A DNA stretch of 25,450 nucleotides. Origin: a virus. Each line of letters opens with the position of its first letter. The first letter of the stretch is position 1. The DNA is taken from positions 1-25,450 of the IMG/VR virus record IMGVR_UViG_3300031280_000017; one strand, 5' to 3'. Positions 3,658 to 25,450 of this stretch are shown here, piece by piece. The notes beneath the pieces were generated by a model. It saw nothing but the letters and a program-made list of their open reading frames with translations, did not search any database and was not told the origin of the DNA. The translations under genes were made by a program, and so were the position numbers.

Positions 3658-5697
3658 ATGACGGTCGTGCAGAGCGGTTTGACGTTGGTGGATGCGACGC
3701 CATGGTGGCAGTTGTCGGGCAGCACGGGCAGCCTGACGCTGTACGATCAGTACGCGTACGATTACGCGACGATCTACCGGACGCAGCCAAACGTGCGGAC
3801 GTGCGTGGATTTTCTGGCGCGGAATATCGCGCAGTTGGGGCTGCACGTATTCCGGCGGGTGAGCGATACGGACCGGCAGCGACTGCGGGATCATCCGTTG
3901 GCGCGGGTGCTGGCCAGGCCGCTGCCGGAGGACTACAAGGTGACGACTTACAGGCTGATGGAGAGCCTGATGGGCGACCTGGGGGTGTATTTCAACGCGT
4001 TCTGGCTGAAGATACGGGTGGAGGGCGCGGGGGAGGGCGGTTCACGAACCGCCCCTACAGCGGGGTTATTGCGGGTGCCGCCGACGTGGATGACTGTGAG
4101 CGGGGCGCTGGGGCCGACGAAGTACACGGTGACGTTCCCAGGCAAGGCGCCGAAGGAGTACAGGCCGGACCAGGTGGTACATTTTCGGGGCTATGGTCCT
4201 GGTAACAATATCGAGGTGGTGTCGCCGCTTGAGACGCTGCGGCGGGTGCTGGCGGAGGAGCACGCGGCGGGGGATTACCGGGAGCATTTCTGGCAGAACG
4301 CGGCGCGGATCGAGGGCGTGATCGAGCGACCCACTACTGCGCCGGAGTGGAGCGAGGCGGCCCGCAAGCGATTCAGGGAAGAGTTCGGGGCGATCCATAG
4401 CGGCGGAGAGGGCAGCGGCAAGACGGCGATCCTGGAAGAGGGGATGGTGTGGAAGGAGGCGGGGTTCAACGCGCAGGAGAGCGAGTACCTGATGGGTCGC
4501 AAGCTGACGCGGGAGGAGTGCGCGCGGGCGTACCACATCCCGCTGCCGATGGTGGGGATCCTGGATCACGCGACGTTCTCGAACATCAAGGAGCAGCACA
4601 AGAATTTGTACCAGGATGCGCTGGGTCCGTGGCTGGCGATGATCGAGCAGGACGTGGAACTGCAGCTCCTGCCGGAGTTCGAGGATACGAAGGGTGTGTA
4701 CGTGGAGTTCAACATCGCGGAGAAGCTGCAGGGGAGTTTCGACGAGCAGACGGAAGCGTTGCAGAGCGCGGTGGGGCGGCCGTGGATGACGGCGAACGAG
4801 GCGCGGGCGCGGTTCAATATGCCGAGTATGGGCGGGGACGCGGACCGGCTGGTGACGCCGCTGAACGTGCTGGTGGGGGGGCAGGCGTCGCCCAGGGATG
4901 TCGATGGAGCACAGGGCGCGTCACGGGGCGATTCACAGGGCGTGTCACGGGGCGATTCACAGGGCGCATCACAGGGCGATTCGCGAATCGCCCCTACGGC
5001 GGCGAAGGCGCTGGACGTGCACAACGGGGAGTTGCGGGAGCGGCACGAGGAAAAGTGGCGGGCGGCGCTGATGCGGCATTACAGGCGGCAGGAGGCGGCG
5101 ATTGTGGGCCGGGTAGAGGAGGGCGCGTCGCGACGCGCCCCTACGGATGCGAAGGTCGATATCGGGGGTGTGTGGTACGACGAGGAGCGCTGGAACCGGG
5201 AGCTGTACGAGGACCTACTACCGCTAAACGTGCTAACGGCGATGGCGTGGGCCGAGCTGGCGGCCGGGGCGCTGGATGCGGAGGTGGACATCGAGCGGAT
5301 GATGGCGTGGCTGCGCGAGCACAGCCGGGTCCAGGCGGCGTATATCAACGGGTACACGCGGGATCAATTGGAAGTCGCGCTACGGGACCCGGAGCCACGA
5401 GAGGCGGCAGGCCGGGTATTTGAATTGGCGCTGACGGTGTGGGCTATCAGAGAGGCCACGAGCGCAGTCACCACGGCGCTGAATTTCGGAGCGGTGGAGG
5501 GGGCGAGCGCGGGTGGGATGCGGTACAAGACGTGGCAGGTGAATAGCTCGAACCCGCGCCCCGATCACGCGGCGCTGAACGGGACGACTGTGGGGATCCG
5601 GGACAAATTCCCGAACGGGCTGCGCTGGCCGGGTGATCCACAGGGTGGGGCTGAGCAGAACGCGAATTGTCAGTGTACGGTGAGGTTTAGTGCGTGA
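3658..5697 (+). CDS. Portal protein fused to MuF-like head morphogenesis domain
   Basis: The portal forms the dodecameric ring at the DNA-entry vertex. Residues 1 to about 415 are HK97-type portal: NVRTCVDFLARNIAQL, DHPLARVLARP, VVHFRGYGPGN, SPLETLRRVLAEE and FSNIKEQHKNLYQDALGPW are recognisable landmarks. Residues about 455-679 match a Mu gpF-like minor head protein, ending in NPRPDHAALNGTTVG and QNANCQCTVRF, the Cys-containing end of that family. In most phages these are two genes. Here the joint is a run of hairpin-derived repeats (residues 419-447), and further single insertions lie at about residues 126-134 and 488-496. The start at 3658 follows a G-rich ribosome binding site. The 679-residue length is explained by the fusion plus insertions. 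Confidence 0.95.
   Translation: MTVVQSGLTLVDATPWWQLSGSTGSLTLYDQYAYDYATIYRTQPNVRTCVDFLARNIAQLGLHVFRRVSDTDRQRLRDHPLARVLARPLPEDYKVTTYRLMESLMGDLGVYFNAFWLKIRVEGAGEGGSRTAPTAGLLRVPPTWMTVSGALGPTKYTVTFPGKAPKEYRPDQVVHFRGYGPGNNIEVVSPLETLRRVLAEEHAAGDYREHFWQNAARIEGVIERPTTAPEWSEAARKRFREEFGAIHSGGEGSGKTAILEEGMVWKEAGFNAQESEYLMGRKLTREECARAYHIPLPMVGILDHATFSNIKEQHKNLYQDALGPWLAMIEQDVELQLLPEFEDTKGVYVEFNIAEKLQGSFDEQTEALQSAVGRPWMTANEARARFNMPSMGGDADRLVTPLNVLVGGQASPRDVDGAQGASRGDSQGVSRGDSQGASQGDSRIAPTAAKALDVHNGELRERHEEKWRAALMRHYRRQEAAIVGRVEEGASRRAPTDAKVDIGGVWYDEERWNRELYEDLLPLNVLTAMAWAELAAGALDAEVDIERMMAWLREHSRVQAAYINGYTRDQLEVALRDPEPREAAGRVFELALTVWAIREATSAVTTALNFGAVEGASAGGMRYKTWQVNSSNPRPDHAALNGTTVGIRDKFPNGLRWPGDPQGGAEQNANCQCTVRFSA
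4035..4058 (+). repeat. Hairpin repeat in the portal domain
   Basis: Arms GGGCGGTT/AACCGCCC around loop CACG, then CTAC. Read as GGSRTAPT. The arm bases differ from the GCAT version, but both sides have changed together, so the stem is preserved. Confidence 0.9.
4914..4997 (+). repeat. 12-bp tandem array of hairpin left arms at the portal/MuF junction
   Basis: Five 12-bp steps of the type GGGCGnnTCACr precede a complete perfect palindrome (GGGCGATTCG/CGAATCGCCC) plus CTAC. It is read as GASR-GDSQ-GVSR-GDSQ-GASQ-GDSR-IAPT. Because the step is 12 bp, the reading frame is kept whatever the copy number. Confidence 0.9.
5121..5144 (+). repeat. Hairpin repeat in the MuF-like domain
   Basis: Perfect palindrome with arms GGGCGCGTCG/CGACGCGCCC followed by CTAC, read as GASRRAPT. 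It sits in a charged loop between two predicted helices. Confidence 0.9.
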
Positions 5698-6422: not shown

Positions 6423-7718
6423 GTGAGCAAGAAAGAACGGATGCTGACTCTGCTGGGAGATGCAGAGAAGATCACGAAAGCGGCCGAGGAGGAAGAGCGG
6501 GCGCTGAGTGACGAGGAGCGTACCGAGGTCACGAAGCTGATGGGCCAGGCGATGGAGCTGCGCGACGAGATCAAGAGTGACGAGGTCGACGTGGAGCTGA
6601 AGGCGCAACTGGCGGAGCTGCTGGACGGGGTGAAGGAGAGCGACGAGCGCGCGGAGCCGAAGTCGGCAGCGGAGAAGGGAACGATCGGCGAGCAGTTCGT
6701 CAGTTCGGCGGAGTTCAACGCGTGGATGAAACAGGTGGCGCCGAACGGGCAGATCCCGGACGGGATGAAACGGTTCACGTCGCCGCCGGTGAACTTCAAG
6801 GGGCTACTGCGCAAGCTGCTGGTGCAGCGCAAGGACCTGATCACGGGGGCGGACGACACGAGCGCAGGCGCATTCGTGGAGACGGATTACACCGGAATCT
6901 ACGAACCGATCGGATACTGGCCGTTGACGATCCGAGACCTGATCTCGGTGGGCACGACGGGAAGCGACCTGGTGGAGTTCGTGCGCCAGACGCAACAGGT
7001 GACAGAAGCGACAACGGTGCCGGAGGCGAACGTGACCGAATACTCCGGGGCGACCGGCGAGATCAGCGGCGAGAAGCCGGAAGGCGCGACGGCGTGGGAA
7101 AAGGTGCAGGAGCCGGTGAAAACGATAGCGGTGTGGATCCCGGCGACGAAACGGGCTCTGGCCGACGTTGGGCAGTTGCGCTCCCTGATCGACCTGGAGC
7201 TGAGGGAGGATCTGGGGCAGGAACTGGAGGATCAACTGCTGAACGGCGACGGCGTGGGCGAGAACTTTACCGGCCTGGCCAACACGGCGGGGACGCTGGT
7301 GCAGGCGTGGGACACGGACATCCTGAGGACATCCCGGCGGGCGATCACGACCTTGCTGGTGACCGGACGTCAGATCCCTACAGCCTGGGTGCTCAATCCG
7401 GAGGACTGGGAGACGGTGGAGCTGACGCAGGATGCGGAGGACCGGTATTACTACGGTGGGCCGCTGGCGCAGGCTACACCCCGGTTGTGGGGCGTGCCGA
7501 TAGCGCAGAGTTTTTACCAGCCGCAGGGAACGGGTTGGCTGGGGAACTGGCGCAAGGCGAGGCTGTGGGACCGTGAACAGGCGACGATCAGCGTGAGCGA
7601 CAGCCACGAGGATTTCTTCATTCGCAATCTGGTGGCGATCCTGGCCGAGATGCGGGCGGCGTTCGGGGTGATCCGGCCGAGCGCGTTCGTGGAGATGGAT
7701 CTGGAATCCGGGTCGTGA
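6423..7718 (+). CDS. HK97-fold major capsid protein
   Basis: This is the main shell subunit. It is 431 residues from GTG 6423. Residues 1 to about 85 are highly charged and helical (EKITKAAEEEERALSDEERTEV and onward), the coiled-coil delta/scaffold region normally removed by the protease. The mature part contains landmarks of the family: an E-loop/N-arm region leading to SVGTTGSDLVEFVRQT, then EKVQEPVKTIAVWIPATKRAL, LEDQLLNGDGVGENFTGLANTAG, AWVLNPEDWETVE, LWGVPIAQSF and the closing FFIRNLVAILAEMRAAFGVIRPSAFV. There is no repeat insertion, in contrast to neighbouring genes. An Ig-like or other decoration domain is not present. If the cassette downstream modifies the virion, this protein is an obvious candidate acceptor, but that is inference only. 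Confidence 0.97.
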   Translation: MSKKERMLTLLGDAEKITKAAEEEERALSDEERTEVTKLMGQAMELRDEIKSDEVDVELKAQLAELLDGVKESDERAEPKSAAEKGTIGEQFVSSAEFNAWMKQVAPNGQIPDGMKRFTSPPVNFKGLLRKLLVQRKDLITGADDTSAGAFVETDYTGIYEPIGYWPLTIRDLISVGTTGSDLVEFVRQTQQVTEATTVPEANVTEYSGATGEISGEKPEGATAWEKVQEPVKTIAVWIPATKRALADVGQLRSLIDLELREDLGQELEDQLLNGDGVGENFTGLANTAGTLVQAWDTDILRTSRRAITTLLVTGRQIPTAWVLNPEDWETVELTQDAEDRYYYGGPLAQATPRLWGVPIAQSFYQPQGTGWLGNWRKARLWDREQATISVSDSHEDFFIRNLVAILAEMRAAFGVIRPSAFVEMDLESGS

Positions 7719-7760: not shown

Positions 7761-7872
7761 TAGGGGCGCAGCGGGGCGCAACACGATGGGGCGCATCACG
7801 ATGGGGCGCAACACGATGGGGCGCAACACGATGGGGCGCAACACGATGGGGCGCATCACGATGCGCCCCTAC
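7760..7872 (+). repeat. Two-ended hairpin element with six 15-bp internal units
   Basis: The element starts with GTAGGGGCGCA and ends with TGCGCCCCTAC, so its ends are inverted copies of each other. Between them lie six 15-bp units GGGGCGCAwCACGAT (7773-7862). It is the only copy in the window that keeps the left GTAGGGGCG terminus. The following GGAGGGG is the ribosome binding site for the gene at 7884. There is no coding sequence in this 165-base gap. Confidence 0.9.
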
Positions 7873-7883
7873 GGAGGGGTAAT

Positions 7884-9746
7884 ATGCAGGTCAACGTGGT
7901 GTGCCGGAATCTGGGCGACGACCGGGTGCTCCCGCGTTTCTCGCGGTATCTGCGGGATGTGAACGGGTGGTCGCTGACGAGTGGGCCGGACGAGAGTGCG
8001 GATGCAATCTACCTGAGCGGGTATTTCGAGGTGCAGACGTGCAGGCGGGGCTGGCCGAGTGTGCCGGTGGCAGCGTATTTCACGCACCGGGAGGCGGAGG
8101 GGGACGGGAAGGCCAAGTTGTTCGACCGGGTGGCCACGCAGGTGCAGCTCAGGATCGCGACGGCGCGGATGTATGCGGAGTACCTGGGGCTGTTCGGGGC
8201 GGCGGTGCAGATCCGGCCGCCGGTGGAGCGGGAGAGGTTCACGATCCCGAAGGGCGCATCACGGGGCGATTCGCGAATCGCCCCTACGGTGGCGGGGTTT
8301 TCGGGATATTCGTATCGGAGCGGGCGGAAGGGGATGGATCTGGCGCACCAATTGGTGCGATCTTCCCAGGGCATCGAATGGCGGGCCTCGGGGCGGGGGT
8401 GGCCGGTGCAGACGACCCGATACAACTGGCGGGAGATGCCGGGTTTTTTCCAGGGGCTGGACGTCCTGGTGATCCCGTCGTTGATCGAGGGGGTACCGAT
8501 GCCGGCGCTGGAGGCGCTGAGCTGCGGGGTGAGTGTGGTGGTGCCGCGCGGGGTGGGGCTGCTGGACGAGCTGCCGCAGGTGCTGGGGATCCACCGGTAC
8601 GAGCGGGGGGACGCGGGGTCTCTGATGAAGGCGTTCGGGAAGGCGGTGAAGGCGCGGCCTGAGGTGGAGCGGGAGGCGCTGCGGGCGGTGACGGAGGGAT
8701 ACACGGTGGAGAACTGGTGCGCGGAGCACCGGCGGGTGATGGAGATGCTGGTCGATGGGGTGAGGGTGGGCGATGGCCAGGGCGCATCACGGGGCGATTC
8801 GCGAATCGCCCCTACGGTGGGCGGTCCGAATGCGGGGCTGGAAGAGGAGGTTGCGGATGAGGTACATCCGATGATGGGCGCATCACGATGGGGCGCATCA
8901 CGATGGGGCGCATCACGATGGGGCGCATCACGATGCGCCCCTACTAAACCTGTGAAGGTGAAGAAGGTGCCGAAGCCGGTGGAGCGGGGGACGGGGAGCA
9001 CGCGGGGGATCTATTGTGTGGCGTTTGGGGATCCGGCGCGGACGTGCGCGCTGAAGATGATGAAGACGGCGAAGCGGATGATGCCGGAGATCCCGATCTG
9101 TCTGTGCAGCGATCGCAAGATCGGGCCGGAGGACGTGCTGGTGAAGCAGCCCGATTCGGATATCGGGGGACGGCGGGCGAAGCTGAAGGCGTACGAGCTG
9201 AGTCCGGCGGAGTGGGAGAGTGTGCTGTACCTGGACGCGGACACGGAGGTGGTGGGGGACATCCGGTTCTACTTCCAACTGATCGAGGACGGGTGGGAAT
9301 TCGTGATCTGCAAGGACCCGCACCTGATGGATACGATGCACGCGTTCCGGCGGAAGAACAATCTGGAGGAGCTGGAGGAGACGGCGGCGAGGATTCACAC
9401 GATGCACACGCTGCAGTACAACGGGGGGGTATGGGCGTTCGGGAGGAACGAGCGGGTGGCGCGCTTTTTCGCGCGGTGGCTGGCGGAGTGGGAGCGGCAC
9501 GCGCAGCGGGACCAGGGGGCGCTGATCCGGGCGATGTACACGGAGCCGCTGCGGGTGTATTTGCTGGGGAATGAGTGGAACACGTTCCCGAAGTACACGA
9601 AGGGGATCAAGACGGCGGGGCTGATGCACTACCCGGGGCGGGCGCGGCGATGGACGGGGATCATCCCCGGGCGGATCGACAGCCAGACGGCGTGGGCGGC
9701 GGTGCGGCGGCACGAGGCGACCCGAGGGAGCAGGGGGCACCGGTGA
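7884..9746 (+). CDS. Bifunctional glycosyltransferase (GT4-like plus GT-A/GT8-like)
   Basis: This 620-residue protein is two sugar-transfer enzymes in one chain. Residues 1 to about 295 are a compact GT-B, family-4-like enzyme. VIPSLIEGVPMPALEAL carries the E-x7-E donor site (Glu202, Glu210), preceded by a SGRGWPVQTTRYNW segment and YSYRSGRKGMDLAHQL. Residues about 373-610 are a GT-A enzyme with the metal-binding DAD in LYLDADTEVVGD (Asp451, Asp453) and NGGVWAFGRNE, GT8-like in style. The linker (about 299-354) consists of two hairpin-derived arrays, and a third insertion sits at residues 124-135. The second domain is a paralogue of the next gene; the codon matching that gene's GTG start is ACG here (9000-9002). 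Sugars and acceptor are unknown. Confidence 0.88.
   Translation: MQVNVVCRNLGDDRVLPRFSRYLRDVNGWSLTSGPDESADAIYLSGYFEVQTCRRGWPSVPVAAYFTHREAEGDGKAKLFDRVATQVQLRIATARMYAEYLGLFGAAVQIRPPVERERFTIPKGASRGDSRIAPTVAGFSGYSYRSGRKGMDLAHQLVRSSQGIEWRASGRGWPVQTTRYNWREMPGFFQGLDVLVIPSLIEGVPMPALEALSCGVSVVVPRGVGLLDELPQVLGIHRYERGDAGSLMKAFGKAVKARPEVEREALRAVTEGYTVENWCAEHRRVMEMLVDGVRVGDGQGASRGDSRIAPTVGGPNAGLEEEVADEVHPMMGASRWGASRWGASRWGASRCAPTKPVKVKKVPKPVERGTGSTRGIYCVAFGDPARTCALKMMKTAKRMMPEIPICLCSDRKIGPEDVLVKQPDSDIGGRRAKLKAYELSPAEWESVLYLDADTEVVGDIRFYFQLIEDGWEFVICKDPHLMDTMHAFRRKNNLEELEETAARIHTMHTLQYNGGVWAFGRNERVARFFARWLAEWERHAQRDQGALIRAMYTEPLRVYLLGNEWNTFPKYTKGIKTAGLMHYPGRARRWTGIIPGRIDSQTAWAAVRRHEATRGSRGHR
8252..8287 (+). 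repeat. Hairpin repeat with one extra left arm, in the GT4-like domain
   Basis: GGGCGCATCACG followed by the full palindrome GGGCGATTCG/CGAATCGCCC and CTAC. Read as GASRGDSRIAPT at residues 124-135, between the N-terminal half and the start of the C-terminal GT-B half. Confidence 0.9.
8780..8815 (+). repeat. Hairpin repeat with one extra left arm, in the interdomain linker
   Basis: Same composition as the copy at 8252-8287: a 12-bp left arm, the palindrome GGGCGATTCG/CGAATCGCCC and CTAC, again read as GASRGDSRIAPT. It begins the linker between the two glycosyltransferase domains. The two copies look like one sequence copied twice. Confidence 0.9.
8876..8944 (+). repeat. 15-bp array ending in a hairpin, in the interdomain linker
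   Basis: Four GGGGCGCATCACGAT units (the first lacking one G) followed by GCGCCCCTAC. Read as GASRW repeated, ending GASRCAPT. The 15-bp period keeps the frame. Confidence 0.9.
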
Positions 9747-10408
9747 GGGGGATCTACTGCGTGGCGTTTGGCGAGCCGGCGCGCAGGTGCGCAGAGCAGA
9801 TGATGGCCAGCGTGCGGCGGTGGATGCCGGGGGTGCCGATTGCGCTGTGCAGCGACCGGGCGCTGGGGCCGGAGGACGTGCTGGTGAAGCGGCAGGATAC
9901 GGACGTCGGCGGGCGGCGGGCGAAGGTGGGGATGTACGAGTTGAGCCCGCAGGAGTGGGATGCGGTGCTGTACCTGGACGCGGACACGGAGCTGGTAGCG
10001 GACGTGGGGTTCCTGTTCGAGGTGGTCGAGGACGGGTGGCAACTGGCGATCTGCCGGGCGATCGTGCAGGAGATGAGGGACTATCCGTTCGTGAGCGAGG
10101 GGCAGCGGCGGCGGACGCGGGCGGCGCTGGGCACGCTGAGGGTGACGCAGTGGAGCAGCGGGGTGATGGCGTTCGGGCGGGACGAGGAGACGGCGCGGCT
10201 GTTCAGGCGCTGGCGGCGGGAGTGGCGGCCGGCCGAGAGGCGCGACCAGGCGGCGCTGATGCGGGCGATTTACAGGAGCCCGGTGCGGGTGTACACGCTG
10301 GGGTACGAGTGGAACACGGTGGCCAATTACGTGCGCAAGCGGAACATCGTGACGGCGGGGGTGATGCACTATCCGATGCGGGCGCGGCGGCCGGCGAGGG
10401 GAAGATGA
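9743..10408 (+). CDS. GT-A glycosyltransferase, GT8-like
   Basis: This 221-residue enzyme starts at GTG 9743, overlapping the previous TGA in GTGA; the frame upstream of it is only a shadow. It is closely similar to the second domain of the preceding protein from its first residues (RGIYCVAFG, then SDR, GPEDVLVK, DVGGRRAK, YELSP, LYLDADTE), so the two arose by tandem duplication. The metal-binding DAD is Asp79-Ala-Asp81. The region after LAICRA has diverged and lacks the HTMHTL insertion, suggesting a different acceptor. WSSGVMAFGRDEETARLF and YEWNTVANYV are conserved with the paralogue. It is a predicted cytoplasmic nucleotide-sugar transferase. Its stop overlaps the next start. Confidence 0.88.
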   Translation: MRGIYCVAFGEPARRCAEQMMASVRRWMPGVPIALCSDRALGPEDVLVKRQDTDVGGRRAKVGMYELSPQEWDAVLYLDADTELVADVGFLFEVVEDGWQLAICRAIVQEMRDYPFVSEGQRRRTRAALGTLRVTQWSSGVMAFGRDEETARLFRRWRREWRPAERRDQAALMRAIYRSPVRVYTLGYEWNTVANYVRKRNIVTAGVMHYPMRARRPARGR

Positions 10409-11097
10409 TGGAGGCGGTGATCAGCCTGACGACGATTCCGAGCCGGGCCGGGTACCTGCGGCGGTGCGTGGAGAGCCTGGTGGGGCAGGGGCCGCCGGTG
10501 TACGTGTGGCTGCCGCGATATATCGTGCGATTGATGGCGCCGGGATTCGAGGAGGCGCCGGGGTTCCTGGCGGAGCTGGGGGCGCACGCGGAGATCGTGG
10601 AGGACCGGGGACCGGCGACGAAGCTGCTGCCGGCGCTGGAGCGGTTCGAGATGGTGATCACGGCGGACGACGACCACGTGTACGGGCCTGGATGGGCGGC
10701 GGGGCTGATGAGGTGGGCGGAGCGCCGGCCGGGAGCGGCGCTGGGATACCGGGGGCGGCGGTTCGTGAACGGGTTGGATTACAAGCGGAGCCGCAAGATA
10801 CTGAATCCGGCGCGGCCGATGCGGGTGGACCTGATCACGGGGGTGCACGGGGGGCTGTACCGGCGCGAGTTTTTCGGCGAGGGGTTCGCCGAGGAGTGGG
10901 CGAGCTGGCCGCTGAACGACGATATTGTGGCGAGCGGGCACCTGTGGCGGCGGGGGGTGCCGATGCTGATCGTCCCACGGCGGTGCAAGATCACGGCGAT
11001 GGAGGCGCGCTCGGTCGACCGGTTGATGGCGGGGAATATGCGGCTGAACAACGCGGGGTTGACTATGGCATACCGGGGGTGGGGCCGTGCCGGGTAA
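10405..11097 (+). CDS. GT-A fold glycosyltransferase
   Basis: This 230-residue enzyme starts at ATG 10405 in the overlap with the previous stop, with GAGGGGA just upstream. The N-terminus AVISLTTIPSRAGYLRRCVESLV resembles the nucleotide-binding first strand of GT-A glycosyltransferases. EDRGPATKLLPALERF and VITADDDHVYGPGWA give the DxD metal site (Asp88-Asp89-Asp90). LNDDIVASGHLWRRGVPM carries a second acidic pair, a common site of the catalytic base. It is not a close relative of the GT8-like pair, so it probably adds a different sugar. It overlaps the following methyltransferase by 11 bases. Donor and acceptor cannot be told from sequence. Confidence 0.85.
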   Translation: MMEAVISLTTIPSRAGYLRRCVESLVGQGPPVYVWLPRYIVRLMAPGFEEAPGFLAELGAHAEIVEDRGPATKLLPALERFEMVITADDDHVYGPGWAAGLMRWAERRPGAALGYRGRRFVNGLDYKRSRKILNPARPMRVDLITGVHGGLYRREFFGEGFAEEWASWPLNDDIVASGHLWRRGVPMLIVPRRCKITAMEARSVDRLMAGNMRLNNAGLTMAYRGWGRAG

Positions 11098-11623
11098 GCC
11101 GAAGGGGATGGTGCAGCCGGAGCCAACGCTGGCGCGGGCGGCGACGATTTTGTTGGGGGCGCTGACCGAGGGGGCGACGGTGTTCGAGTTCGGCAGCGGC
11201 GGCTCGACGCTATTCCTGGCGCAGCGGGCGGCGCGGGTGGTGAGTGTGGAGCACGACGCGGACTGGTGCGCGGCGGTGGCAAAAGGATTGGAGGCGCGCG
11301 GATTGCAGGCCGATGTGTGGCTGGTCGAGACTGAAGAGATGGCGAACGCTATCACGGACGAGGATGAGTTCGACGTGGTGTTCGTGGATTGTTACGGGCC
11401 ACAGCGGGCGCAGGCGATCGGCCAGGGTGCGCGACACGTGAGACCGGGTGGATGGCTGGTGGCGGACGATTACGACAGCAAGCCGAAGGTGCGGCGGGCG
11501 GTGGAGTGGCTGCGGGGCGCGGGCTGGGACGTGGCGCTGGTGGATGGTATCAAGGTGCATCTGCGCAAGGGATCGGTGCATACATCGACGGCGTTCTGCC
11601 AGAGGGGTGCTAGATGTTCCTGA
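11087..11623 (+). CDS. Class I SAM-dependent methyltransferase
   Basis: This 178-residue protein starts at GTG 11087; ATG 11108 is possible. It shows the Rossmann methyltransferase order: motif I FEFGSGGSTLFLA (residues 33-45), an acidic end of strand 2 in VVSVEHDADW, motif IV FDVVFVDCYGPQ, and post-motif VRPGGWLVADDYDS. No DNA-methyltransferase target domain and no catalytic PCQ or DPPY motif is present, so a small-molecule or glycan/protein O-methyltransferase is more likely than a DNA modifier. It lies in an overlapping run with glycosyltransferases upstream and sulfotransferase-like genes downstream, which points to methylation of a sugar. The C-terminal residues overlap the next gene by ten bases. 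Confidence 0.85.
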   Translation: MPGKPKGMVQPEPTLARAATILLGALTEGATVFEFGSGGSTLFLAQRAARVVSVEHDADWCAAVAKGLEARGLQADVWLVETEEMANAITDEDEFDVVFVDCYGPQRAQAIGQGARHVRPGGWLVADDYDSKPKVRRAVEWLRGAGWDVALVDGIKVHLRKGSVHTSTAFCQRGARCS

Positions 11624-12177
11624 TCACGGGGAGCGGACGGAGCGGGACGAAGTATATGGCCACGGTGCTGCAGAAGTGCGGGCTGGACGTGGGACACGAG
11701 CGGCTGGGGCGGGATGGGGTCGTATCGAGTTATTATTGTTTCGAGGTGACGTGGTATCCGGGCCACCACGCGGCGCCACGGCCGGCGTTCGACGTGGTGC
11801 TGCACCAGGTACGGCACCCGCTGCGCAGTATCGCCAGCATCCAGACGGGGCATTCGTGGAAATGGACGTGCCAGTTTCTGCCGGTGGGGGAGAATGCGCC
11901 GCTGCTGCGGCGGGCGTGCTGGAATTGGCTGGTGTTCAACGAGGAGGCGGAGCGGCAGGCGGCGTTGACGTATCGGGTCGAGGATCTGGAGGAGACGTGG
12001 GGGGAGATCGAGCGGCTGCTGGGTTTCGAGGCCGATTACGGGTCGATCGCCGACGTGCCGAGGGACATCAACACGCGCCGGCATACGGCGGTGACGTGGG
12101 CGGACGTGCGGCGGGTGGCGCCAGGGGTCTACGAGCGCATCCGCGCGGCGGCGAGGCGCTACGGGTATGGAGGGTGA
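11614..12177 (+). CDS. Sulfotransferase-fold protein (PAPS-type P-loop)
   Basis: This 187-residue protein starts at ATG 11614, overlapping the methyltransferase. The N-terminus MFLITGSGRSGTKYMATVLQ contains the 5'-phosphosulfate-binding loop (SGRSGTKY), and VRHPLRSIASIQ (about residues 67-77) is the 3'-phosphate-binding element with Arg and Ser in the expected places. YRVEDLEETWGEIERLLGF near residue 110-140 matches the common sulfotransferase end region. Known family members move sulfate from PAPS to carbohydrate hydroxyls or other acceptors. It is small for the family but both cofactor-binding segments are present. Position in the glycan cassette suggests sulfation of a sugar. Phage-borne sulfotransferases are uncommon as far as I know. 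Confidence 0.8.
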   Translation: MFLITGSGRSGTKYMATVLQKCGLDVGHERLGRDGVVSSYYCFEVTWYPGHHAAPRPAFDVVLHQVRHPLRSIASIQTGHSWKWTCQFLPVGENAPLLRRACWNWLVFNEEAERQAALTYRVEDLEETWGEIERLLGFEADYGSIADVPRDINTRRHTAVTWADVRRVAPGVYERIRAAARRYGYGG

Positions 12178-12934
12178 CGTGGCAAGGGATAACGATCATA
12201 CCAAGAATATGGCCCAGGGGGCGCTGATCGTGGCGGCGATCCGGTCGGGTGGGACGTTCCTGGCGCATTGTCTATCGAATCACAGCCAGATCTATTGCGA
12301 CCGGGCCGAGTCACTGCACCACCGCAGTGTGTGGTGCAAGGTGGGGATGGATCGGCGGCACCTGCTGGCGGCGCTGCTGAATCAGAGCGGGTACCAGGTA
12401 TCGATGTGCAAGCTGATCTACGTGCAGGCATTCACGGAGGGCATCTGGGAGTGGATCGTCAAGCGGCAGCCGCGCGTGATCTGGCTGTATCGCGAGAACG
12501 TGCTACGCCAGGCGCTGAGTGTATATCTGAACCGGCAGGTGCGCCAGGCGGGAGTGCTCAAGCGGCCGCAACACACGTTCAGGGAGACGAAGCCGATCAC
12601 GGTGGAGATCGAGCCGATGCGGTTTGTCCGGCTGGCGCGGAGCCTGATAGCCTACGACAAGCAGGCGAAGGCGCGGCTGGCAGCGCTGCGGGAGGTGCTG
12701 CCGTTGACGTACGTGGATGTGGTCGGCGGGGAGGACGCAAGAGCCGAGCGGCTGCCGCTGGCGACGACGAAGCGGGTGTGCGCATTCCTGGGGGTGGATT
12801 ACGAGCTATTGCGGTGCGAACTGAAGCGGGTCAACCCGTTCCCGCTGCACGAGATGATCGGCAACTGGCGGGACGTGAGGAAGGCGATCAAGGAAAGCGA
12901 GTTTGCAGATCTATTGGAGGCCGAGAATGGGTGA
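12167..12934 (+). CDS. Second sulfotransferase-like protein (Stf0-like)
   Basis: This 255-residue protein could start at ATG 12167 or, with GGAGGG four bases ahead, at GTG 12179. IVAAIRSGGTFLAHCLSNHSQI (near residue 20-41) is a sulfotransferase-type P-loop with SGG in place of SGT. RVIWLYRENVLRQALSVYLN (near 103-122) is the 3'-phosphate-binding segment with Arg and Ser, in the arrangement seen in Stf0-like enzymes. LPLTYVDVV and TTKRVCAFLGVDYELL near the end match the usual closing region. It is longer than and clearly different from the preceding gene, so the two may sulfate different positions. The stop overlaps the start of the next gene by eight bases. The assignment is by motif, without a search. 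Confidence 0.72.
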   Translation: MEGDVARDNDHTKNMAQGALIVAAIRSGGTFLAHCLSNHSQIYCDRAESLHHRSVWCKVGMDRRHLLAALLNQSGYQVSMCKLIYVQAFTEGIWEWIVKRQPRVIWLYRENVLRQALSVYLNRQVRQAGVLKRPQHTFRETKPITVEIEPMRFVRLARSLIAYDKQAKARLAALREVLPLTYVDVVGGEDARAERLPLATTKRVCAFLGVDYELLRCELKRVNPFPLHEMIGNWRDVRKAIKESEFADLLEAENG

Positions 12935-13736
12935 AAAAAAGGGCATCGTGTTGAGCGGGCCGGATGGGACGATCGAGGCGCAGACGCGGAACAAGAAGCT
13001 GGGTGTGGTGGTCGGCGGATTGGGCGATGGACAACCACAAGGGTTATCCCTACCATTCGACAAGGTGCTGTTCGTCGAGCCGGGGACGGAGGTGCCGTGG
13101 GACTTGCTGCCGGCGGCGTGGCATTTCCTGGAGCGGTGGGACGCGGCGGTGCCGCTGTGGCGGTACGGGGTGACGGCGGCGGACGTGGGATCGAAGGAGG
13201 AGCGGAAGCGGACGCAGGCGGTGGTGCGGGATCTGCGGGTGCTACTGCACAGTGTGGAGCTGCTGTTCGTGCGAAATACCCCGGATCAAGATGGGCAGAC
13301 ATTGGGAAGAGATCTGATAGCGGCGTACCGGGAGGAGCTGGGGATAGATCACGATGGGGCGGATCACGATGGGGCGGATCACGATGGGGCGGATCACGAT
13401 GGGGCGCATCACGATGGGGCGGATCACGATGGGGCGGATCACGATGGGGCGCATCACGATGCGCCCCTACAGGAGGGGGTGAATAGGCGGCTGGCGTTTT
13501 TGCGGGCGCTGTACCGGGTGAAGCCACGGCTGTGCGTGCTGCCGGTGACGTGGCTGGCGAAGGTGGCGGCGCGATCGAAGCAGGATGCGATTGCGGTGCG
13601 GGGACGAGGGAGGCCGACGGGGCAGCGGTTGGTGGAGGTGGAGCTGGGGCCGGGGCGGTTCGTGAAGTGCAATCCGGGTGACGAGGATGCGGTTTTGAAG
13701 ATGCTATCGGGGAGGCGTGGCGATGATAAAAAGTAG
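12927..13736 (+). CDS. Phage protein of unknown function split by a repeat array
   Basis: This 269-residue protein starts at ATG 12927, with GGAGG (12916-12920) 6 nt upstream; the longer frame from 12903 lies inside the previous gene. I do not recognise a function. Residues 1-140 include GIVLSGPDGTIEAQT, WHFLERWDAAVPLWRYG and a charged helix RKRTQAVVRDLRVLLHSVELLFV. Residues 141-181 are a 15-bp-step array read as DHDGA repeats. The second part begins EGVNRRLAFLRALYRVKPRL and ends RLVEVELGPGRFVKCNPGDEDAVLKML, a motif also found at the start of the next gene. An AGGAGG and an in-frame GTG (13479) directly after the array hint that the second part was once its own gene. The gene lies between the glycan cassette and the head-tail connector. 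Confidence 0.75.
   Translation: MGEKKGIVLSGPDGTIEAQTRNKKLGVVVGGLGDGQPQGLSLPFDKVLFVEPGTEVPWDLLPAAWHFLERWDAAVPLWRYGVTAADVGSKEERKRTQAVVRDLRVLLHSVELLFVRNTPDQDGQTLGRDLIAAYREELGIDHDGADHDGADHDGADHDGAHHDGADHDGADHDGAHHDAPLQEGVNRRLAFLRALYRVKPRLCVLPVTWLAKVAARSKQDAIAVRGRGRPTGQRLVEVELGPGRFVKCNPGDEDAVLKMLSGRRGDDKK
13347..13470 (+). repeat. 15-bp array with seven full units, inside the unknown gene
   Basis: GATCACGAT, then seven units GGGGCGsATCACGAT, then GCGCCCCTAC. Most units read GGATCACGAT and two read GCATCACGAT, giving ADHDG and AHHDG. The last unit pairs with the closing arm as a normal hairpin. Adding or losing units cannot shift the frame. Confidence 0.92.
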
Positions 13737-14112
13737 GGGTCCATTGGTGCGGGTAGAGCTGGAGCCGGGACGGTTCGTGAAGATGTACAAGAAGGACGCG
13801 GGGGCGCTGGGGTTGCTGAAGCCTTCAGCCCAGGGGAAGGTGCGGCGGCCGGGAGGAGATAAGATGCGGCGGCCGGAGGGCGATAAGGGACAGCCCCCGC
13901 CCCAACCCTCCCCCAAGGAGGGGGAGGGGGCGGAGGTGAGTACGCGGGTAATCACTGACGATTTCACGGTGATCCCGGGGATCGGGGAGGCGACGGCGGC
14001 GATGCTGCGAGAGCGGGGGATCCTGACGCTGGAGGTGCTGCGAGAGATGGAGACGGGTGATCTGCCGGCGCGGGTGGCGCGGGCGATCGAAAGGTGGCGC
14101 GATGGCGAGTAA
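13723..14112 (+). CDS. Helix-hairpin-helix phage protein
   Basis: This 129-residue protein starts at ATG 13723 (GTG 13717 is possible) with GGGAGG upstream, overlapping the previous gene by 14 bases. Residues 1-25 (LVRVELEPGRFVKMYKKDAGAL) repeat the motif that ends the previous protein. Residues about 41-56 are a doubled RRPxGDK. Residues about 57-70 (PPPQPSPKEGEG) come from an inserted hairpin sequence. The C-terminal domain VITDDFTVIPGIGEATAAMLRERGILTLEVLREM has the helix-hairpin-helix pattern with the GIG turn that binds DNA backbones or forms protein contacts. Such small proteins occur near the connector genes of other tailed phages; I cannot say if it is structural or DNA-binding. Confidence 0.75.
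   Translation: MIKSRGPLVRVELEPGRFVKMYKKDAGALGLLKPSAQGKVRRPGGDKMRRPEGDKGQPPPQPSPKEGEGAEVSTRVITDDFTVIPGIGEATAAMLRERGILTLEVLREMETGDLPARVARAIERWRDGE
13841..13888 (+). repeat. 24-bp tandem duplication
   Basis: Two consecutive 24-bp copies starting TGCGGCGGCCGG and ending GATAAG encode VRRPGGDK and MRRPEGDK. The duplication is in frame and lies in the linker before the helix-hairpin-helix domain. Confidence 0.8.
13898..13932 (+). repeat. C-run/G-run hairpin repeat inserted in the coding sequence
   Basis: CCCTCCCCC (13906-13914) pairs perfectly with GGGGGAGGG (13920-13928) around AAGGA; flanking CGCCCC and GGGGCG can extend the stem. It encodes PPPQPSPKEGEG. This looks like a widespread class of bacterial hairpin repeat with CCCTCCCC/GGGGAGGG arms, distinct from the GGGCG family. 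Confidence 0.8.
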
Positions 14113-15280: not shown

Positions 15281-15649
15281 ATGACGGTCTTTGAATCTTT
15301 ATTGAATAATACATTTGCGGTGGAGCGGCGGCAGCGGGTGAGCGATGGGCAGGGCGGCTGGATCGTCGTGTACGTGGCTGTGGGAACAGTTGAGGGGCGG
15401 ATCTGCCCGACCAGCTCAAAGGAGCGGGTGGTGGCGGACGCGGAGCAGCAGCAGATCACGCACGTGCTGTACGTGGCGGCGGGGGAGGACGTGGCTCGGG
15501 GGGACCGGGTGACGTACGCGGATGCGGATGGTGTGCATCCGTTGGCGGTGGAGGTGCTGGGGATCAGGGAGCCGAGCGAGGCGGGGACGCATTGGGAGAT
15601 CGACTGCCTGGAGCGGCAGTACGAGGAAGTGGGGGAGGAGGGGTCGTGA
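15281..15649 (+). CDS. Head closure / head-tail joining protein
   Basis: This 122-residue protein closes the connector and contacts the tail (SPP1 gp16 / Phage_H_T_join family). Landmarks: NTFAVERRQRVSDGQGGWIVVYVAVGTVEGRI, a strongly conserved opening with DGQGG; then SSKERVVADAEQQQITHVLYV; then EDVARGDRVTYADADG and LAVEVLGIREPSEAGTHWEIDCLERQ, where the final strand before the end is typical. The start is ATG 15281 after GGATGGGAG. The stop is followed 10 bases later by the next start, which lies in a CAACGGATGAG repeat. Length is normal for the family. Confidence 0.9.
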   Translation: MTVFESLLNNTFAVERRQRVSDGQGGWIVVYVAVGTVEGRICPTSSKERVVADAEQQQITHVLYVAAGEDVARGDRVTYADADGVHPLAVEVLGIREPSEAGTHWEIDCLERQYEEVGEEGS

Positions 15650-24501: not shown

Positions 24502-25059
24502 TCATAGATGCCAATTGTCGGCTGGGCTGGCGCGGCGGTGGACGTCGGCGAGGTCCTGCTCGGCCAGGCGGATGTAGACCTTGACCATATCGAGGGATGA
24601 GTGGCCGAGGAGGGCCTGGAGGGTAAATGGATCTCCACCGTTGCGCAGATAGGTGATGGCGAAGGTGTGGCGGAAGCGGTGAGGGTAGACGCCGGGGACG
24701 CCGGCGCGGTCGGCGCAGCGGTAGAGCATCCGGCGGATGGCGTGTCGATCCAGGCGGGTGCGCCAGTTGGTGGCGGCGATGAGGGGGGCGTCATCCTCGA
24801 TGGTTTCCCCGAGCTTTTCCTCGCGGTCGGCCAGGTAGCGCCAGAGAGCCTTGCGGGTGACCTTGCCCAGATAGACGTGGCGGGTCTTTGTCGTCATCCT
24901 GTGTTTGGAATCGCGGACGACGACGAGGCCCCGGGCCAGGTCGACGTCGACGCGGTTGAGCTTGCACAGCTCGGTGACACGGATGCCGGTATCGAGCAGG
25001 ATGAGGATGACGGCCTTGGTGTTGGTGAAGGTTTGTTGCAGAGCGATCGTTGCGGACAT
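24502..25059 (-). CDS. Tyrosine recombinase, catalytic domain only
   Basis: This 185-residue protein starts at the ATG at 25059, with AAAGGAGG 7 bases upstream on the minus strand; a longer frame to 25227 only reads through the neighbouring gene. All active-site positions can be seen: Arg27 in LDTGIRVTEL, Lys58 in MTTKTRHV, His127 and Arg130 in PHRFRHTF, His153 in LLGHSS, and the nucleophile Tyr162 in VKVYIRL. The family strand breaks and rejoins DNA at att or dif sites. Normal integrases carry a further 80 to 180 residues of N-terminal core-binding domain that are absent here, so it may be a reduced enzyme, a partner of another protein, or a remnant. It is convergent with the virion genes. 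Confidence 0.9.
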   Translation of the reverse strand: MSATIALQQTFTNTKAVILILLDTGIRVTELCKLNRVDVDLARGLVVVRDSKHRMTTKTRHVYLGKVTRKALWRYLADREEKLGETIEDDAPLIAATNWRTRLDRHAIRRMLYRCADRAGVPGVYPHRFRHTFAITYLRNGGDPFTLQALLGHSSLDMVKVYIRLAEQDLADVHRRASPADNWHL

Positions 25060-25072
25060 TTGAGATCCTCCT
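25060..25072 (-). promoter_or_regulatory. Strong ribosome binding site of the recombinase
   Basis: On the minus strand AAAGGAGG precedes ATG 25059 by about 6 to 7 bases, and it lies right after the stop of the small upstream gene. This near-perfect site decides the start of the catalytic-only recombinase against the longer frame. Confidence 0.75.
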
Positions 25073-25188
25073 TTACTTTCCACAGGTGATGACGACCTGG
25101 GCGATAATGACGACCAGTCCCAGCAGGCCGATGATGGCCAGCAGGGGGCAGTTACCCGGTCGATTTGGTCACGGAAAAAGTTGCGCAT
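25073..25188 (-). pseudogene. Small single-span membrane protein gene with a one-base frameshift
   Basis: On the minus strand ATG 25188 (GGAGG 5 bases before it) opens MRNFFRDQIDRVTAP. In the neighbouring frame the sequence continues as LLAIIGLLGLVVIIAQVVIT followed by CGK and a TAA at 25073. Adding one C to the five-C run (plus-strand GGGGG at 25144-25148) would join the two parts into a 38-residue protein with one membrane helix, of the size seen in many small phage membrane proteins. As written the frame continues out of register into the recombinase. It is either a real frameshift or an error in a homopolymer. The start overlaps the upstream stop as TGATG. Confidence 0.5.
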
Positions 25189-25450
25189 CAAGCCTCCGGC
25201 GATGTGTCGATGATGGATACAAGACATTGAATCTGAGCGGCCCAGGCGCCGTCCCCGGCGGCGTCCCAGGCGGCGGCCCCGGCGGCGTCCCCGGCGGCCC
25301 AGGCGGCGGCCCCGGCGGCCCAGGCGGCGTCCCAGGCGGCGGCCCAGGCGGCGGCCCCGGCGGCGGCCCCGGCGGCCCCGGCGGCCCCGGCGGCGGCCCA
25401 GGCGGCGTCCCAGGCGGCGTCCCCGGCGGCGTCCCAGGCGGCGGCCCCGG
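25188..25450 (-). CDS. C-terminus of an Ala/Trp/Gly-rich repeat protein (partial)
   Basis: The minus-strand frame runs from the window edge to a TGA at 25188-25190 that shares one base with the next ATG, a coupling arrangement. It ends with the unrepetitive AAQIQCLVSIIDTSPEA. Before that the visible part is made of 9- and 12-base units encoding (W/G)AA, (W/G)AAA or (W/G)DAA, such as AAWDAAWAAAG. Trp and Gly alternate through one-base changes (TGG/GGG). Alanine-rich AAWDAA repeats of this kind are seen in many uncharacterised phage and bacterial proteins. The function is unknown. The start and size are outside the window. Confidence 0.6.
   Translation of the reverse strand, partial: GAAAWDAAGDAAWDAAWAAAGAAGAAGAAAGAAAWAAAWDAAWAAGAAAWAAGDAAGAAAWDAAGDGAWAAQIQCLVSIIDTSPEA
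25236..25450. repeat. 9/12-bp GGC-rich minisatellite
   Basis: About 215 bases of units GTCCCmGGCGGC, GGCCCmGGCGGC and CCmGGCGGC run to the window edge. The bases are almost entirely G and C. All unit sizes are multiples of three, so frames stay open on the coding strand. A region like this is prone to slippage and to assembly collapse, so the true length could differ. Confidence 0.9.

Follow-up and report, generated by a model that had tools for sequence, protein, structure and literature searches.

A modular glycosyltransferase cassette next to the capsid gene of uncultured tailed phages and its proposed role in virion glycosylation

We analysed a 25,450-base viral sequence (IMG/VR record IMGVR_UViG_3300031280_000017, hereafter the window), a fragment that starts within a terminase gene and carries a cassette of seven overlapping genes (7884-13736) after the gene of its major capsid protein (MCP). 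The cassette encodes glycosyltransferases (GTs), a methyltransferase, one sulfotransferase and one further putative sulfotransferase, and related cassettes occupy the same position in other uncultured tailed phages. Based on the sequence comparisons presented below, we consider it likely that this is a modular cassette by which the phage O-glycosylates its own virion proteins in the cytosol, at serine (Ser) or threonine (Thr) residues at their C-termini. Fetched loci are labelled L followed by a number (e.g. L178, L057), the seventh cassette gene is called g7 and the next small head gene g8. Gene calls were automatic throughout the loci, and the counts derived from them are lower bounds.

Gene content of the cassette

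The cassette consists of the following genes:
7884..9746, plus strand: core gene, GT4 (GT-B) fused to GT8 (GT-A), 620 amino acids; PF13692/PF00534 over the cut-off, PF01501 below
9743..10408, plus strand: gene 2, second GT8-type glycosyltransferase; LYLDADTE motif; PF01501 at E 0.014, 15.4 bits (cut-off 24.3)
10405..11097, plus strand: gene 3, GT2-like glycosyltransferase with a DDD motif; PF00535 20.5 bits, below the cut-off of 23.3
11087..11623, plus strand: gene 4, methyltransferase dependent on S-adenosylmethionine, Methyltransf_24 type; PF13578 29.9 bits (cut-off 26.3)
11614..12177, plus strand: gene 5, putative sulfotransferase ST1 (tentative; motifs only)
12167..12934, plus strand: gene 6, sulfotransferase ST2 (Sulfotransfer_3); PF13469 34.9 bits (cut-off 27)
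12927..13736, plus strand: g7, last gene of the cassette, a conserved GT8-like protein that lacks DxD; profile-profile match to GT8

The initial annotation had placed six consecutive, head-to-tail overlapping genes at 7884-12934, between the major capsid gene and the connector gene. Their coordinates and overlaps (4-11 nt) are correct, and so is the site, as the MCP matches its HK97 family and head-tail genes follow downstream. The extent was incomplete, as the seventh gene, which overlaps gene 6 by 8 nt, had been overlooked.

The six genes were also said to hold four GT domains. One of these, the GT4 half of the core gene, exceeds its cut-off (PF13692, 29.8 bits vs 27), and its E202-x7-E210 motif is invariant in 10 relatives. 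The GT8 half of the core gene (PF01501, 21.8 bits vs 24.3), gene 2 and gene 3 score below their cut-offs and contain DxD or DDD motifs; in the GT8 half, D451 and D453 are invariant in the alignment of relatives. Gene 2 shares 77% DNA identity with this half over 300 nt (repeat D4), and its sequence marks it as a duplicate of the GT8 half. No relatives of gene 3 were present among the fetched cassettes, and genes 2, 5 and 6, when searched singly in IMG/VR, matched no close relatives; those of gene 6 surfaced only via the capsid and core-gene searches.

The methyltransferase is well supported by the score of gene 4, whose family has profile matches in 7 loci. Two sulfotransferases had been proposed, and we could confirm gene 6 by its profile and predicted fold: the top Foldseek matches of its AlphaFold model (predicted local distance difference test, pLDDT, 88) are sulfotransferases, namely 3RNL, human 3-O-sulfotransferases and tyrosylprotein sulfotransferases. 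ST2 thus resembles the sulfotransferases that depend on 3'-phosphoadenosine-5'-phosphosulfate (PAPS), such as 3RNL and the 3-O-sulfotransferases, in sequence family and fold, and differs from them by its location in a phage; relatives of ST2 are present in about 20 cassettes. Gene 5 had no profile match in the family search. Its PAPS-loop residues (5' loop G6/R9/G11/T12, 3' loop R67/P69/S72/S75) are kept in phage homologues at 26-30% identity, which comprise a protein of phage C48C1 (26%) and two viral contigs. Gene 5 is therefore likely a sulfotransferase, an assignment that is tentative because it has motif conservation only and no family match.

The closing gene g7 is found in nearly all relatives with sufficient downstream sequence. 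In a profile-profile comparison, 121 columns of g7 align with GT8 (97.9%, E 6e-13). Whereas the GT8 set, including the GT8 half of the core gene and gene 2, has the DxD motif, this motif is absent from 62/62 g7 proteins, in which the corresponding site reads like VLFVEPGTEVPWDL. The AlphaFold model of g7 (pLDDT 90.6) has weak Foldseek matches to GT-A enzymes in the PDB (template modelling score about 0.35), and the relation to GT8 thus rests on the profile comparison. Furthermore, there is an alternative cassette type without the GT4 gene (e.g. L151, L156, L166, L169, L172), where the gene in the g7 position keeps a DxD-like LYVDADT in the members whose sequence was read that far. Because of this, g7 appears to be a GT8 that has degenerated.

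Distribution and position next to the capsid gene

The cassette is flanked by structural genes; the features needed below are:
6423..7718, plus strand: MCP, HK97 type; PF05065 E 1.9e-40; C-terminus ...MDLESGS; proposed O-glycan acceptor
13717..14112, plus strand: g8, small head protein flanking the cassette; adjoins the capsid gene downstream in L178/L200, which have no cassette
15281-15649: head-closure protein; PF05521
16436..16843, plus strand: tail tube protein; PF06199 E 4e-13; C-terminus ...WTELVS; second proposed acceptor
24502-25227, other strand: tyrosine integrase; PF00589

An alignment search with the core gene yielded at least 218 viral loci in IMG/VR, 80 of which were kept, and 12 loci in metagenome-assembled genomes (MAGs), many of them labelled Chloroflexota. 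Among 50,697 records of cultured phages, the core gene was not found. In 88 loci, the core gene is preceded by a capsid gene, and the distance is at most 170 bp in 80 of these. When searching with the capsid protein only, we obtained 20 loci, 19 of which have readable downstream sequence. In 18 of the 19, the GT4-GT8 gene, whole or split into its halves, follows directly or after one inserted gene; the remaining locus, L019, has a methyltransferase after the capsid gene instead. The cassette is found in at least a hundred relatives, and its linkage to phages is strong. The earlier proposal of a glycan pathway that is carried by phages and includes methylation and sulfation is supported. An ordinary host cell-wall cluster had been named as the finding that would speak against this proposal; the MAG matches do not bear out this objection, since most of them lie in phage contexts.

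There are also phages in which the same site is empty. Judged by their capsids (44-48%), the closest cultured relatives are the Gordonia phages Moosehead and Reyja, the Mycobacterium phage Kevin1 and the Arthrobacter phages RedFox and Cote, and these have one small gene only between capsid and adaptor. In the uncultured L178 and L200, capsid, g8 and connector are consecutive and no cassette is present; the distance between capsid and connector is 509 bp in L178.

Exchange of modifying genes

The interval between the core gene and g7 measures 0-4.4 kb and contains genes of many families. These include one methyltransferase family with 37 members, GT2 (20), Sulfotransfer_3 relatives (20), Methyltransf_24 (15), UDP-glucose/GDP-mannose dehydrogenases (8), Sulfotransfer_4 (4), hexapeptide acetyltransferases (3) and others. 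Among 59 closed cassettes, we observed 30 arrangements, with a methyltransferase in at least 38, a sulfotransferase in at least 24 (counting tentative members, i.e. three sulfotransferase-like genes (K8) and gene 5) and both in at least 15. These numbers are minima because automatic calls miss genes that are merged with spurious open reading frames, such as the methyltransferase of L004. The mean Jaccard index of accessory content is 0.81 at a capsid identity of at least 90%, compared to 0.14 at 80-90%, and L054 and L060 have no accessory families in common at a capsid identity of 93%. The locus is modular and its content changes fast; thus, the combination of methyl and sulfo genes in the window is one among many outputs.

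Modifiers of this kind might act on the host instead of the virion. Surface-glycan loci often contain GT, methyl, acetyl and sulfo modifiers, some cassettes hold UDP-sugar dehydrogenases or epimerases, and the integrase of the window makes lysogeny possible. The cassette could then alter the surface of the infected or lysogenic cell and block competing phages or reabsorption, like the gtr seroconversion genes of temperate phages. The gtr cassettes combine GTs with exchangeable specificity genes, require a membrane flippase and a lipid-linked sugar transferase and are located outside the structural operon. Phage-borne GTs with exchangeable genes are common to both systems. However, a hydropathy scan of 146 accessory proteins revealed no convincing membrane segment, with the top values corresponding to core strands of soluble folds, and there is no flippase, lipid-carrier transferase or lipid-linked transferase among these genes. 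The lack of membrane segments argues for an acceptor in the cytosol. Furthermore, the cassette sits inside the structural operon, and a role at the host surface leaves the ends of the capsid and tail proteins described below unexplained. Modification of the host surface is thus unlikely in our view. The initial annotation had regarded capsid or tail glycosylation and masking of the host surface as both plausible; the absence of membrane proteins, the operon position and the cassette-associated terminal Ser/Thr favour the virion over masking.

Terminal Ser/Thr on capsid and tail proteins

The capsid and tail tube of mycobacteriophage Che8 are reported as glycosylated (PMC12363180, PMC11256854), and a review locates mycobacteriophage glycans at the C-termini of these two proteins (PMC12619734). 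We therefore tested the protein ends in our loci. Among 74 distinct relatives, the last residue of the tail tube is Ser/Thr in 72, and the entropy at its last position is 0.61 bits vs 2.0 at the preceding one. For the capsid protein, such an end is found in 64 of 82 relatives. Control proteins rarely end in this way (terL 2/46, portal 8/71, connector 4/70, g7 0/68; 0-18% in larger control sets). Both the capsid and the tail tube could be seen in 40 phages, 39 of which carry GT genes. All 39 have a Ser/Thr end on at least one of the two proteins (30 on both, 8 on the tail only, 1 on the capsid only), while in the cassette-free L178 neither ends in Ser/Thr.

The same ends occur in three phages in which the core gene is combined with unrelated or very distant head genes. 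The phrog_1005 capsid of L057 ends in ESGS; in L026, the cassette lies between terminase and portal and the capsid ends in EEGS; and the probable capsid of L028, identified by position and resemblance only, ends in LGT. In the capsid families of L057 and L026, the cultured members have different ends. Together with five further divergent capsids, 8/8 cassette-bearing capsids end in Ser/Thr vs 2/20 cassette-free ones (Fisher p 1.4e-5, in a grouping picked after the data were seen and with relatedness ignored).

Some observations weigh against terminal Ser/Thr as the acceptor of a cassette-encoded glycan. The sequences are related, and both the counts and the p-value thus overstate independence. 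Among the 39 cassette phages, the capsid lacks a Ser/Thr end in 8 and the tail tube in 1. Terminal Ser is neither sufficient nor exclusive, since it is also found on the cassette-free capsids of HK022 (SSGS) and Kevin1/BIB7 (ASS) and on head-closure proteins, which end in Ser/Thr in 60 of 75 cases and also in the cassette-free L178 (VTGS). The cassette-free tail tube homologues that we found are two only, from L178 and Bacillus phage Silence. Lastly, the GTs of Che8 were considered as homologues of the core and rejected, as gp108-110 had no hmmsearch/hhalign match to the GT4, GT8, g7 and GT3 profiles. The capsid C-terminus was also rejected as a universal acceptor: one group of cassette phages has capsids ending in ...ELA, and the tail tubes of the same group end in Ser.

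A different virion component could carry the glycan in place of capsid and tail tube, e.g. the head-closure protein, a tail fibre with a LamG domain, or g7 or g8. The frequent Ser/Thr ends of the head-closure protein would fit this, and g7, which is conserved along with the cassette, could itself be glycosylated. However, we rejected a link between the head-closure Ser/Thr and the cassette because this end is retained in L178, no g7 protein has a Ser/Thr end, and the known precedents act on capsid and tail tube (PMC12363180). We hence judge another component to be quite improbable as the target. The GTs might also glycosylate modified bases of the phage DNA, as in T4 and relatives, since phage GTs often act on DNA (review PMC12619734). 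Among the scanned window genes, however, no pyrimidine-modification enzyme was recognised, and neither the post-capsid position nor the pattern of protein ends would be explained, which makes a DNA target very improbable.

Other features of the window

The upstream part of the window contains, in this order, the terminase, a gene at 1379-2851, the portal, the protease, the HK97 capsid gene and the cassette. Downstream of the cassette are the small head gene, connector, head-closure, tail tube, tape measure and tail proteins and, on the other strand, the tyrosine integrase. The gene at 1379-2851 encodes 490 amino acids without a family match, and a stretch of it resembles a glycoside hydrolase (HVGNEPNNPGEW); no relative of this gene was found among the fetched loci. 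The end of g7 and the start of g8 (about 13660-13790) carry a similar short motif (LVEVELGPGRFVKC and LVRVELEPGRFVKM), and the g8 of L178 starts with a motif like it. In L016, a putative HNH-type gene (4607-5209) sits between the capsid gene and the core gene. The end of the contig (25237-25450) is a low-complexity array of GGC/GCC-rich units of 9 and 12 bases.

The window furthermore contains 13 copies of a palindrome, GGGCGnnnCrCGAnnCGCCC, at 1968, 3600, 4035, 4974, 5121, 5712, 7849, 8264, 8792, 8921, 13447, 14416 and 20094, many of which are followed by CTAC. Variants preserve the palindrome (e.g. GGTTC/GAACC, CGTCG/CGACG), and several copies are in-frame insertions within genes, among them some at linker sites of the core gene. 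The 15-base half of the palindrome forms tandem arrays before the core gene (7773-7863), within it (8876-8935) and within g7 (13347-13461), which add repeated WGASR and DHDGA peptides that relatives do not have. Host assignment via this repeat failed: neither of two exact repeat forms was found in the 11 MAGs holding relatives, and of 400 genomes from one phylum, 3 contain one of these forms.

Discussion

We propose that the cassette acts late in infection. The GT4-GT8 core protein, aided by g7, would attach a sugar in the cytosol to freshly synthesised subunits of the tail tube and, in most members, also of the capsid, in each case at the C-terminal Ser/Thr. With its metal site lost, g7 would probably bind or position the acceptor. 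Further GTs would then lengthen the chain, and methyltransferases and sulfotransferases, or elsewhere acetyltransferases or sugar-nucleotide dehydrogenases, would cap or recolour it, so that sulfate and methyl groups may be present on the virion. As these modifiers are swapped between phages, related particles would bear different surfaces. More tentatively, the cassette may be a transferable system common to a widespread group of uncultured tailed phages whose capsids belong to several unrelated lineages. It would decorate the terminal Ser/Thr of both capsid and tail tube with polymorphic glycans that are methylated and sulfated, and a dead GT8 paralogue, g7, would recognise the acceptor.

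Virion glycosylation in mycobacteriophages (Che8, Corndog and Myrna) was reportedly established by Freeman et al. in 2023. In Che8, the capsid (NKTGS) and the major tail protein (YSDGS) both end in -GS, and among its nine other head and tail proteins that we checked, a Ser/Thr end is confined to the small terminase. The window proteins end similarly (...ESGS and ...ELVS). GTs with methyltransferase domains or genes modify the capsid and tail tube of Che8 and cluster O phages (PMC11600133, PMC12363180), and an O-methyltransferase adjoins three GTs in cluster O (PMC11600133). Che8 gp108 combines GT2 and Methyltransf_24 domains, and gp110 is a GT25. Both systems have phage-encoded GTs with methyltransferase functions, which act on capsid and tail tube in mycobacteriophages and would do so here. 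They differ in that the GTs of Che8 are GT2/GT25 enzymes at the far end of the genome and have no flanking GT8-like pseudo-enzyme, whereas the core in the window is a GT4-GT8 protein after the capsid gene that is accompanied by g7. Furthermore, we found no sulfotransferase match in gp108-110. As the GT cores are unrelated by sequence, the cassette is not a homologous member of the Che8 kind, and by analogy it would work like mycobacteriophage virion glycosylation in a non-homologous way.

The earlier view that such a cassette is not a described phage system thus holds in part. Virion glycosylation with GTs and methyltransferases is known from Che8 and cluster O, whereas the GT4-GT8 core, the capsid-linked exchangeable layout and the sulfotransferases are undescribed in the literature searched. 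What appears to be new is therefore the GT core, the capsid-linked position, the modularity and the sulfation. Sulfotransferases occur in phage genomes with a function described as unclear (PMC10580990). If our interpretation is true, sulfated bacteriophage virions would be the first case as far as the literature searched shows, and the 'auxiliary' sulfo-, methyl- and glycosyltransferases that are scattered among environmental phages would be united as one testable system. The proposed acceptor signal is simple, as it requires only that capsid and tail tube terminate in Ser/Thr, often as -GS, and it fits Che8, the one experimentally studied phage that we checked. The glycosylation state of uncultured phages would then be predictable from two protein ends and the neighbouring cassette, and the exchange of modifiers would lead to close relatives that differ in their surface chemistry, like bacterial O-antigens.

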